Source: Rhizobium sp. BT03
Lineage (GTDB): Bacteria; Pseudomonadota; Alphaproteobacteria; Rhizobiales; Rhizobiaceae
NCBI RefSeq assembly: GCF_030053155.1
Contig: NZ_CP125642.1
Span: 124,001 to 188,000 of the forward strand
Reading direction: 5' to 3'
Length of the DNA: 64,000 nucleotides
Positions within the stretch are counted from its first letter, which is position 1. Each line of letters starts with the position of its first letter. The position numbers and the translations under genes are program-made. The notes under the pieces are model-generated. The model did not search any database. It saw only the letters and a program-made list of their open reading frames with translations, and was not told the DNA's origin. Below are positions 43,031 through 48,099 of this stretch, piece by piece.

Positions 43031-43170
43031 ATTCGGAGTCAATATGTTTCTGCAGCTCACGGCCGCAACCGGCGACGATCCCAGGAAACATCAGTAAAAT
43101 CAGGGATAAGCAGGAGAAGTCCAACATCGCCCGGCGATGGATGGCGCGCCGTGGTTTTCGAGGCGATCGA

Positions 43171-43215
43171 CCAAAAACGAAAAAGCCTGCCGCGGGAGGA
43201 GGTGCGGCAGGCTTT
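43171..43215 (-). terminator. Intrinsic terminator formed by the last anti-SD hairpin
   Basis: The 12-pair stem AAAGCCTGCCGC/GCGGCAGGCTTT (43204-43215 with 43182-43193) is followed on the minus strand by TTTTTCGTTTTT. It ends the DUF1127-small RNA transcription unit. Confidence 0.85.
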
Positions 43216-43334
43216 CGAAAAAAACCGAACGACAGCTGGGAGGAGGAGTGCTGCCGTTCCCGCAGACGACCCTGGGAGGAGGATGGGGCGCCTGCATATC
43301 GAAGCGATGCGGGAGGAGGTGCATCGCTTCGATA
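43171..43334 (-). ncRNA. Small RNA with four anti-Shine-Dalgarno hairpins (cuckoo/CcsR-like)
   Basis: Read on the minus strand, four consecutive hairpins each expose CCTCCTCCC in the loop, complementary to a strong SD. Stems are 43297-43310 with 43321-43334 (14 perfect pairs), 43263-43273 with 43284-43294 (imperfect), 43227-43236 with 43250-43259 (one mismatch), and 43182-43193 with 43204-43215 (12 perfect pairs). The last is followed by TTTTTCGTTTTT, an intrinsic terminator. Stem sequences differ but loops are invariant, so the loop is what is conserved. This matches alphaproteobacterial cuckoo RNAs and the CcsR1-4 cluster of Rhodobacter, which follows a DUF1127 gene, as here. Ends are estimated; it may be processed from the DUF1127 transcript. 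Confidence 0.85.
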
Positions 43335-43520
43335 GAAATAATCATACTTATTTCCTGCTCAGTTGGTAGGCATTTCTTTGCAGGGCAGCTATGCGTTATG
43401 CGAAAAGCGGGCGGCTTGATCAGGTGGTCCCGGCCTACCTGAAGCACAAAAGCAAAGCGCCCGCTTCTGGAGAAAGCAGGCGCCGGCCAAACTCTTAGTA
43501 AATGCTTAGTCTACAGGCCG

Positions 43521-43667
43521 TTAGCGGGCGATGGCAGCGCGAGCGACGTTGCGGATGTCGCCGCGGCCGATGCCGAGGTCGTCCAGTTCGCGCGTGGACA
43601 TACGGCCCAGTTCAGCGACCGTCTGACGGTACTTGCGCCAGTTGTTAAAAGAGCGTGCTACGTTCAT
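43521..43667 (-). CDS. DUF1127 mini-protein (CcaF1-like)
   Basis: 48 residues (MNVARSFNNWRKYRQ to RNVARAAIAR), very basic, with the core RQTVAELGRMSTRELDDLGIGRGDI that defines DUF1127. The ATG at 43667 has AAGGGG six to seven bases upstream. In Rhodobacter sphaeroides a DUF1127 protein encoded directly before the CcsR small RNAs binds RNA and affects their maturation. The same order is seen here, so an RNA-related function is likely by analogy. A TATTAT element at 43743-43748 (minus) could be its -10, giving a leader of about 70 bases; no clear -35 is seen. Confidence 0.92.
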   Translation of the reverse strand: MNVARSFNNWRKYRQTVAELGRMSTRELDDLGIGRGDIRNVARAAIAR

Positions 43668-43857
43668 GATGATCCCCTTTCCGTGGGCTTTCGAAGCCTA
43701 GCTGCCAGTCCTTGGCGCTTCGTTCGCTTCGATGAGAGGTATATAATACGAGCCCTTCGATAGTTGCAGCGCCAATGCATCACTGCACCTATGCGACGTT
43801 TGCATGGGTCGGCATATTCGGGGCGTATTTTCGATCTGGATCCGAGCCGCTTCGCGG

Positions 43858-44838
43858 TCAGAGTTTGAAGCGATCGAAGGCCGTCAGCCGCACGATCGGC
43901 GGCTCTGCCTCTTTCCACCGGTAGATGTCCGAGCGCAGATAGGAAAGCTCGTCGTCAAGATCGTCTTCGCCGACTTCGATCCACCAGGACTTCAGCCGGC
44001 CGTCGCTGCCATCCGACCAGCGATACCCCCTCGCCTTCAGATGGTCCTTCATCTCGAACGGGCTGTGTTCGGCAAAAATGCGAATCCGCGAGCGCTGGCT
44101 GGCGCGGTAAAGCTCGGCAAACGGGCTTTCACCGTCGCCTTGTTCTCGATCGAGAATTTCCAGCAGCGCGTGGCAGTCATCCACGGCGCGGTGGCCGTCA
44201 TGGAAATACCCGGCCTGGCCGACGAGATAGCCGAGCTTGGTGCCTTCGAAACCGCGGGCGCTCCAGTCGATCTCCGAAACCGAGCACGCCCAGGCCTTGC
44301 CGGCGAAAATCCTGGAGAAAGCTTCGCAGAACGGCCGGTCGAAACCGGCATTGTGGGCGATGATCAGATCCGCCGGCTCGATCAGCGCGCTCAACGATCT
44401 GCTGTCGATGACCTGGCCTTCGACCATCGAATCGGTGATGCCGGTCAGCCGGGTAACCTCCGGCGGTATCGGCCGCGACGGCTGTTGCAGGCCGCCATAG
44501 ATGCCGACAATATCGCCGATCCCGCCGTCATCGTCGAATGTGAAGCCGACGGCGCCGATTTCGATGATTTCGTCGCTGCGGTGATTGAGACCGGTCGTCT
44601 CCGTATCGAGAATGACGCCGAGCCGCAGAAATTCCGGCCGTCTGACCGTTGCGATCGGCCGGGCGGTCAGTTTCCGCAGGATGCGGTAATTGCCGCTCTC
44701 TTCAAGCGTGCGCGCCATATCTTCATCGGAATGGCCGGCCGGCTGCGACAACGGCCGGCGCGAGGGAGCGCGCGCCTTGGCGACTGCCGGCGATGCCCTG
44801 GCAAACATGTCGAGTTGCGAATCTCTCTGCACGCTCAT
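43858..44838 (-). CDS. DnaQ-like 3'-5' exonuclease (DEDD family)
   Basis: 326 residues. The exonuclease domain covers about 70-245: ExoI LDTETTGLNHRSDEIIEIGAV is split near residues 76-96, ExoII HNAGFDRPFCE around 165, and the final Asp in DGHRAVDDCHALLEIL. A basic, Pro-rich N-terminal stretch and a C-terminal extension of about 75 residues (FEMKDHLKARGYRW, WKEAEPPIVRLTAF) make it longer than the replicative epsilon subunit. It probably acts in DNA repair or nucleic-acid trimming rather than as the polymerase III proofreader. No polymerase genes are adjacent. Confidence 0.85.
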   Translation of the reverse strand: MSVQRDSQLDMFARASPAVAKARAPSRRPLSQPAGHSDEDMARTLEESGNYRILRKLTARPIATVRRPEFLRLGVILDTETTGLNHRSDEIIEIGAVGFTFDDDGGIGDIVGIYGGLQQPSRPIPPEVTRLTGITDSMVEGQVIDSRSLSALIEPADLIIAHNAGFDRPFCEAFSRIFAGKAWACSVSEIDWSARGFEGTKLGYLVGQAGYFHDGHRAVDDCHALLEILDREQGDGESPFAELYRASQRSRIRIFAEHSPFEMKDHLKARGYRWSDGSDGRLKSWWIEVGEDDLDDELSYLRSDIYRWKEAEPPIVRLTAFDRFKL

Positions 44839-47478: not shown

Positions 47479-47776
47479 GCACGACGCATGACGAGCCGCA
47501 GAAAATGCGGCTCACTCGCAGCGCATGAGGCCATGCGCGACAGCGATATGTAAAATCTCGAGATGCAACTTTATGACGAATGAAAATTTCCAAAAAACTA
47601 AAAGTTGACGAATTCAGATTCGATGCTTATATCGGCATTGTCGATATTGCTTGTTTGACTTTTGTTATCGCGCGCTGGCAACGTGCCCTGGACGAACTTC
47701 CCTCTTCAAAATCGAGATCATCATCCGTCGTGCTTCCCGCACGCGCGGTCATTCAATTGCTATGAAAGGGTTTGTT

Positions 47777-47986
47777 ATGACCACTGGCACAGTTAAATGG
47801 TTCAATTCCACCAAGGGCTTCGGCTTCATTCAGCCTGATGACGGCGGCGCTGACGCCTTCGTTCACATCTCTGCCGTCGAGCGCGCCGGAATGCGTGAAA
47901 TCGTCGAAGGCCAGAAGATCGGCTACGAGCTTGAACGCGATAACAAGTCGGGCAAAATGTCCGCTTGCAATCTGCGAACTGCCTAA
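47777..47986 (+). CDS. cspA: Cold-shock domain protein
   Basis: 69 residues, a single cold-shock OB fold. RNP1 KGFGFIQP (about 13-20) and RNP2 DAFVHISAV are intact. It binds single-stranded RNA/DNA and melts secondary structure. ATG 47777 is preceded by AAAGGG. The frame continues upstream to 47651 without family similarity, and this upstream part is best seen as the long leader typical of csp genes. An intrinsic terminator follows at 48052. Confidence 0.95.
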   Translation: MTTGTVKWFNSTKGFGFIQPDDGGADAFVHISAVERAGMREIVEGQKIGYELERDNKSGKMSACNLRTA

Positions 47987-48051
47987 AATTGTTATCTGCT
48001 TTCCTGTGACCACGGATGTACTGGCACTGTTGAAAGCATGATACCGGCGAG

Positions 48052-48076
48052 GTCAGGCAAGTTGCCTGGCCTTTTT
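48052..48076 (+). terminator. Intrinsic terminator after the cold-shock gene
   Basis: GTCAGGC (48052-48058) pairs with GCCTGGC (48064-48070) with one G-U pair and loop AAGTT, followed by CTTTTT. Confidence 0.8.
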
Positions 48077-48099
48077 GTTGCGCACGCCGAGCGGCGATT

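Follow-up and report, generated by a model that had tools for sequence, protein, structure and literature searches.

A conserved four-hairpin anti-Shine-Dalgarno RNA locus downstream of a DUF1127 gene in Rhizobium sp. BT03

Small RNAs made of consecutive hairpins with anti-Shine-Dalgarno (anti-SD) loops and variable stems were described in 2011 for SmelA075 (three hairpins) and SmelA099 (four hairpins) of Sinorhizobium meliloti, and RNAs of this type occur in several copies per genome, R. leguminosarum relatives included (PMC3927594; this and all other papers are cited from excerpts). SmelA099 (alias smrA6, SMa6570), known from deep sequencing (PMC2873474), is located on pSymA at 1328175-1328334 of the minus strand (PMC7143759, PMC2873474). 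Its ends rest on sequencing, because the 5'-RACE text of PMC2873474 names SmelA075 instead; in the 2010 table of the same paper, an earlier prediction overlapping it, A6, is signed plus and SmelA099 minus. The three-hairpin SmelA075 was strongly detected after a shift to 40°C (PMC2873474). Cuckoo RNAs have two to four hairpins with a conserved loop (as cited in PMC4504443), and short DUF1127 genes next to CcsR-like RNAs have been labelled CIN1 (as cited in PMC10253847). SmelA075/SmelA099, the cuckoo RNAs and the CIN1 loci being in earlier papers, the kind of RNA treated here is already known.

CcaF1 of Rhodobacter sphaeroides is an RNA-binding DUF1127 protein that is cotranscribed with the small RNAs CcsR1-4 and, like RNase E, contributes to their maturation (PMC10253847). 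Short Agrobacterium DUF1127 proteins act through PhoR and CcaF1 can stand in for them, and the excerpt of that paper reports no evidence of RNA binding by YjiS (PMC12501420); one S. meliloti DUF1127 gene is under attenuation control through an upstream ORF (PMC12218461). The loops of NfeR1 are reported to silence target mRNAs redundantly by pairing at translation start regions (PMC7143759, PMC10746234), and the NfeR1 and AbcR1 promoters are bound and activated by LsrB (PMC10746234, PMC8844928), AbcR1 being the only LsrB-dependent AbcR copy of S. meliloti (PMC8844928). For VtlR, binding to the abcR1 and atu1667 promoters has been reported (PMC7486931); atu1667 is an ortholog of Brucella VtlR targets, DUF1127 proteins, and in Brucella VtlR drives three DUF1127 genes plus AbcR2 (PMC12595884). 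The published VtlR/LsrB box is GCAT-N3-TG-N3-T (PMC7486931, PMC8844928); a search of the A. tumefaciens genome for the 15-bp VtlR consensus gave, according to the excerpt of PMC7486931, one further site only, vrsA.

The window, that is, the whole 64-kb stretch of Rhizobium sp. BT03 DNA analysed here, belongs to a 0.56-Mb plasmid contig of a 6.9-Mb genome. It contains exactly four copies of CCTCCTCCC, all on the minus strand (43194-43202, 43238-43246, 43274-43282 and 43311-43319), whereas dinucleotide shuffles of the window contained 0.5 copies on average and none of 100 contained four or more. When region 43171-43340 was folded as RNA, four separate hairpins were obtained, each with the motif in its loop, at -78.6 kcal/mol (z -8.7), a stability reached by none of 200 shuffles. 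The features of the RNA are:

43177..43334, minus strand: predicted small RNA of 158 nt with four hairpins, SmelA099 counterpart (ends transferred from the published SmelA099 ends)
43297..43334, minus strand: hairpin 1, loop CCUCCUCCC at 43311-43319 (motif count and folding)
43262..43295, minus strand: hairpin 2, loop CCUCCUCCC at 43274-43282 (motif count and folding)
43227..43259, minus strand: hairpin 3, loop CCUCCUCCC at 43238-43246 (motif count and folding)
43181..43216, minus strand: hairpin 4, loop CCUCCUCCC at 43194-43202, terminator-like, with T run (sequence and folding)
43178..43301, minus strand: match to Rfam ar14 (RF02344) over hairpins 2-4 (103.8 bits, gathering score 58.8)

The four minus-strand hairpins with CCTCCTCCC loops of the original prediction were thus confirmed, both by the motif count and by folding. 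Its reading of the last hairpin as a terminator also fits, hairpin 4 being terminator-like in sequence with a T run behind it; this hairpin was missing from a simple terminator scan because its 10-nt loop exceeds the length that the scan allows. Four consecutive hairpins with a CCUCCUCCC loop in each are the mark of the SmelA099 type, and two to four hairpins with a conserved loop that of the cuckoo RNA family; both were found at the locus. Together with conserved loops, covarying stems (see below) and an ar14 score above the cut-off, this bears out the proposed membership among the cuckoo, or anti-SD hairpin, RNAs. The CcsR1 model (RF02791) stayed below its gathering score on the locus (37.4 vs 65.3 bits), as did the ar7 model (40.7 vs a cut-off of 60).

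The best reading of these data is that the RNA corresponds, in Rhizobium, to SmelA099 of S. meliloti and, among the ar14/cuckoo RNAs, is a relative of NfeR1 with four modules. The SmelA099 stretch has four exact loops, starts one base ahead of hairpin 1 and stops right behind the T run of hairpin 4, and the ar14 model gives its three 3' hairpins 90 bits. Hairpins 1 and 4 are each near-identical between the two RNAs, and the loops are spaced by 37, 36 and 46 nt in SmelA099 and by 37, 36 and 44 nt in the window RNA. The promoter box discussed below is at -74 from loop 1 in SmelA099 and at -75 in the window RNA. Unit borders and box thus match by sequence comparison with the published ends, the start in the window being predicted, and we infer that the RNA is transcribed in Rhizobium sp. 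BT03 as well. A tblastn search of the 3 kb surrounding SmelA099 gave no DUF1127 match.

Loop conservation and stem covariation in relatives, the comparison by which the original prediction proposed to be judged, were both observed. Selection by nothing but the DUF1127 protein gave 80 loci, the top 80 of at least 251 relatives, and in 59 of these one or more exact loops lay within 450 nt downstream; in these best 80 of at least 251, the number of exact loops was four in 40 loci, five in 2, three in 11, two in 5, one in 1 and none in 21, one of the latter (L095) ending at the gene with its contig. A larger set of 170 sequences was made up of these 80 loci, the window and 89 sequences chosen by DNA similarity to the locus, and contained 177 DUF1127 hits, 159 of them unique. 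Four loops in a chain, none with more than one mismatch, followed 121 of the 159 unique hits, a proportion biased by the 89 of 170 underlying sequences that were picked by similarity; 10 hits were intermediate and 28 had no loop within 420 nt, seven of these being more distant second hits and one (L095) being cut by the contig end. Loops 1 to 4 were exact in 100, 117, 119 and 112 of the 121 chains, respectively, a conservation that is partly built in because the one-mismatch limit was a condition for accepting a chain.

RNAalifold, applied to 57 sequences at most 90% alike (ungapped), returned four hairpins. In this alignment 98.1% of the cells were paired and 27 of the 38 consensus pairs had changed on both sides, with slid controls giving 6-9 pairs. 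Cells changed on both sides numbered 147 against 34.5 in shuffles, and none of 500 shuffles scored as high, numbers to be read with caution since the structure was derived from the same alignment, the relatives are not independent and related sequences can exceed shuffles even without structure. Swapping the arms as a control lowered the mean stem length slightly (9.2 to 8.4, 9.3 to 8.2, 10.0 to 8.6 and 13.6 to 13.0); the both-side pair counts are the better test. In alignment A1, both-side changes affected 7 of 8 consensus pairs of hairpin 2 and all 9 of hairpin 3, so stems 2 and 3 are variable and covarying among these fairly close relatives. The stem of hairpin 4 (GCCTGCCGC/GCGGCAGGC) is nearly invariant and is identical in S. 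meliloti SmelA099, and in hairpin 1 (43297-43334, alignment A1) the 5' arm is better kept than the 3' arm. Neither the invariance of the hairpin 4 stem nor the arm bias of hairpin 1 is accounted for by pairing alone.

An explanation in which no functional RNA exists, and the hairpins belong to a repeat rich in C or to a coding frame, has in its favour a mechanical ORF of 115 aa (43100-43447, minus strand) that crosses the RNA. Nevertheless, the stems show compensatory changes, the loops are conserved, the spacers between loops differ by single bases among relatives and SmelA099 has been detected in S. meliloti (PMC2873474). Both a coding function and a simple repeat were rejected on these grounds, and we consider this explanation hardly credible.

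One question is whether the RNA is cotranscribed with the gene that precedes it. The elements found upstream of hairpin 1 are:

43341..43346, minus strand: -10-like TATGAT, 6 nt ahead of the predicted RNA start (sequence)
43382..43394, minus strand: VtlR/LsrB-type box GCATAGCTGCCCT ahead of the RNA (exact match to the published box)
43456..43484, minus strand: terminator-like stem of the DUF1127 unit, 12 pairs, with T tail (terminator scan)
43521..43667, minus strand: DUF1127 gene, 48 aa (PF06568, 61.7 bits, cut-off 23.3)
43782..43794, minus strand: VtlR/LsrB-type box GCATAGGTGCAGT, 127 nt ahead of the DUF1127 start (exact match to the published box)

A short DUF1127 gene beside the RNA, the mark of CIN1 loci, is thus present. 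It had been described as lying directly upstream; it is indeed upstream and belongs to PF06568, but 186 nt separate its stop (43521) from hairpin 1 (from 43334), and this gap contains the 12-pair terminator-like stem and a conserved promoter-like region. Relatives were compared in a set of 93 loci less than 93% alike (ungapped comparison), with the window left out. A terminator-like element was found between the DUF1127 gene and the RNA in 87 of them; mononucleotide shuffles gave an expectation of 3.0, and the reverse strand had none. The terminator scan of the locus itself gave 2 terminator-like sites vs 0.7 in shuffles, with one site on the other strand. About 60 nt upstream of hairpin 1 are conserved at a fixed distance in relatives, and TA[CGT]NNT occurred in the -10 region of 83 of the 93, against 35.6 expected from shuffled stretches. 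No good -35 was seen at the RNA promoter and a sigma-70 scan of it gave no hit; before DUF1127, the best match to the S. meliloti RpoH1 consensus was 9 of 13. The terminator-like element and the separate promoter-like region argue, as far as sequence goes, against a single DUF1127-RNA transcript. Apparently the locus consists of two neighbouring transcription units, with read-through from DUF1127 into the RNA being possible.

Many relatives, among them L150, L139 and L143, have an anti-SD-like sequence (CTTCCTCCC) in the loop of the DUF1127 terminator as well. A run of 7 or more motif bases was found in the terminator loops of 33 of the 159 loci, whereas 0.6% of random loops of matched composition had one; the motif is exact in L150 and degenerate in the window, and related loci share it by descent.

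The original prediction had assigned the locus to the CcsR1-4/CcaF1 type. A CcsR-like operon, in which one stress promoter would serve both genes, RNase E would cut the precursor and the DUF1127 protein would aid maturation, as for CcaF1-CcsR1-4, accounts for the identical gene order and for its recurrence in the larger, biased sample (121 of 159 hits) and in the loci selected by DUF1127 (59 of the best 80 of at least 251). We regard it as unlikely, because the terminator-like element (87 of 93) and a promoter-like region with its own box (81 of 93) intervene, the CcsR1 model does not reach its cut-off, and the published SmelA099 unit starts at hairpin 1 with no tblastn match to DUF1127 in the surrounding 3 kb. 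The assignment is therefore not supported, and SmelA099 and NfeR1 of S. meliloti come closest among characterised RNAs.

Sequences fitting the published LsrB/VtlR box precede both the RNA and the DUF1127 gene. Of the 93 relatives, which are not independent, 81 carry the box at -76 to -74 relative to loop 1 and 82 carry it at -129 to -122 relative to the DUF1127 start; 71 have boxes at both of these fixed positions. The chance of a box in such narrow ranges is about 0.001 per locus, as estimated from its frequency in the window. The exact box was missing before the RNA in 12 and before DUF1127 in 11 of the 93. Since the box has seven fixed bases only and the window contains 14 exact boxes vs 9.2 expected, the case rests on its fixed position in relatives. 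Nor is it special to the paired loci, for 18 of the 38 DUF1127 hits without a four-loop chain carry it within 200 nt. The A. tumefaciens search with its one further site (PMC7486931) likewise counts against a shared LsrB/VtlR input. Six copies of ar14 RNAs exceed the threshold in this genome; an exact box precedes four of them (that of the window, L001, L003 and L005), and in the other two (L002 and L006) none was found within 200 nt. A family-wide search of 151 genomes with a strict pattern of box plus hairpin 1 found it in 13, namely in 3 of 3 of the window's genus and 10 of 148 others. This count is a lower bound because the exact hairpin-1 loop context was demanded, and the search gives no support to a wide spread outside the genus.

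A matrix derived from the RNA promoters was also applied. The three AbcR promoters of the genome scored 13-29 bits, above all 314 background stretches, and two of the three contain the exact box; the matrix matches both tandem AbcR copies, although AbcR1 alone is LsrB-dependent in S. meliloti (PMC8844928). With the DUF1127 promoters, 64 of 93 were above the 95% background level and 11 above the background maximum, so the published box was relied on instead; one background stretch equals the score of the DUF1127 box of the window. Among the other six DUF1127 genes of the genome, L023 scored as high as one of the 314 background stretches and five were ordinary. A LysR gene of this genome adjoins two AbcR RNAs in the gene order described for vtlR, and its neighbours were taken, by reading, as trxB-like and arsR-like.

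Each unit carrying an LsrB/VtlR box, both are probably switched on together. The reading that we prefer, at a probability of about 0.73, is that of two units, each with a LysR-type box, the RNA being a multivalent anti-SD repressor and the counterpart of SmelA099. The first unit would make the 48-aa DUF1127 protein and stop at its own terminator, the second would make the 158-nt four-hairpin RNA, and LsrB would bind the two boxes and activate both in whatever state LsrB/VtlR reads. In the excerpts seen, our literature search, which did not cover the 2015 cuckoo paper, found no DUF1127-cuckoo pair connected with LsrB/VtlR; what we did not meet in print is the arrangement in two units with LysR-type boxes that match.

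A possible but rather doubtful extension is that one LysR-type redox regulator drives the four-loop RNA together with a separately promoted DUF1127 protein that acts on the RNA or its targets, which would make the locus a two-promoter Rhizobiaceae counterpart of CcaF1-CcsR; the regulator, instead of cotranscription, would then keep protein and RNA in step. The loops might alternatively serve mainly as a landing site for a protein, e.g. the arginine-rich DUF1127 protein encoded next to it, which would then be sequestered by the RNA. Four identical loops on differing stems and the RNA binding of CcaF1 (PMC10253847) agree with a landing site. However, for NfeR1 the reported mode of action is antisense pairing of its loops (PMC10746234, PMC7143759), the short Agrobacterium DUF1127 proteins act via PhoR, with YjiS lacking RNA-binding evidence in the excerpt of PMC12501420, no loop is present within 420 nt downstream of 28 of the 159 DUF1127 hits, and SmelA099 has no DUF1127 in its surrounding 3 kb, which makes this explanation improbable.

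As regards the function of the loops, the original prediction had proposed titration of ribosomes or of SD-bearing mRNAs. We take the loop to be identical to the 16S anti-SD sequence and not complementary to it; two exact patterns for the 16S 3' end gave no match in this genome, which is listed as 100% complete. On this basis, RNA and ribosome would be competitors for the SD, and the RNA would not bind 16S rRNA. Direct binding and titration of ribosomes through 16S rRNA, to which the resemblance of the loop to the anti-SD might point, was rejected as most improbable, because two sequences of the same sense cannot pair. The part of the proposal that concerns SD-bearing mRNAs fits. The window RNA carries the NfeR1 loop four times and most likely silences as NfeR1 does; by this analogy it would most likely repress mRNAs by covering their ribosome-binding sites: any of the four CCUCCUCCC loops could pair with a GGAGG-type SD sequence and block ribosome loading. 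In the genome, 50 sites of the form GGGAGGAG-N4-10-ATG were counted, vs 7 in a backward control. The first 30 of the 50, all on contig 1, gave 18 ORFs of at least 50 aa, of which 17 were scanned; 14 of the 17 had a Pfam family, and 4 of the 17 candidates were transport proteins. By analogy with NfeR1, the main targets may be transport-related mRNAs.

Concerning the genomic setting, the best plasmid matches to 43100-43900 were those of Rhizobium sp. N324 and C104 (~95%), in whose gene tables DUF1127 and an exonuclease lie under the match; some other records add a hypothetical protein. R. johnstonii 3841, formerly R. leguminosarum bv. viciae 3841, keeps this gene order on pRL11, where kduD, kduI, DUF1127, an exonuclease and an ATP-binding protein are listed at the corresponding place. 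The query matched 594 plasmid records, 338 of them from Rhizobium, with at least 80% query coverage in 107 of the 594. The plasmid gene tables compared contain no RNA genes, and the RNA of the locus accounts for a stretch without a listed gene that recurs in many Rhizobium plasmids.

Other arrangements were seen as well. A second copy in the same genome (L005, G000:C4:338960-339086) has four hairpins, the first loop with one mismatch, and the same box, and no DUF1127 match was found by tblastn in its surrounding 3 kb. A chromosomal locus (L008, G000:C1:728194-729307) combines an ar14 RNA with a DUF1127 gene, behind which come a single CTCCTCCC hairpin and a terminator-like hairpin and then a second DUF1127 gene. 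Loop clusters are upstream of DUF1127 in L081, L092, L097, L098 and L099. DUF1127-like proteins are also encoded by the Sinorhizobium phages phiM12, phiM7, phiM19, phiN3 and Phosso and by Roseobacter phage CRP-403 (9 records); in the three phage records examined (L239, L240 and L241) no exact CCTCCTCCC was present within ~1.5 kb. Elsewhere in the window, an Rfam ar35 match (47965-48080, plus strand; 46.6 bits, slightly above the cut-off of 45) overlaps the 3' end of ORF 47651-47986 (plus strand), which we read as a cold-shock-like protein.

The four anti-SD hairpins are a genuine RNA locus, conserved in relatives. Through boxes at fixed positions, a single candidate regulator links the DUF1127 proteins with the cuckoo RNAs, two families whose roles are unsettled, and the locus makes it testable whether DUF1127 proteins act on anti-SD RNAs, as CcaF1 is reported to do, or on proteins, as is reported with PhoR.

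Compared with the known systems, the locus agrees with the cuckoo and CIN1 loci (Reinkensmeier and Giegerich 2015, as cited in PMC4504443 and PMC10253847) in hairpin number, conserved loop and short DUF1127 gene. With CcaF1-CcsR1-4 it shares a DUF1127 gene followed by loop-motif RNAs. The Rhodobacter genes, however, form a single operon with an RpoHI/RpoHII promoter, RNase E processing and a 71-aa protein (PMC10253847), whereas the window has apparently separate units, LsrB/VtlR-type boxes, a 48-aa protein and a CcsR1 score below threshold. NfeR1, an ar14 RNA, is like the window RNA in its ar14 score above the cut-off, its anti-SD loops and its LsrB-type promoter box (PMC10746234), although ar14 has three hairpins and the window RNA four; the LsrB motif of NfeR1, TGCA-N6-GCAT, is at -72 to -60 (PMC10746234), and the GCAT-N3-TG-N3-T of the window ~61 nt ahead of hairpin 1. 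SmelA099 differs in length, with 160 nt against a predicted 158 nt for the window RNA.
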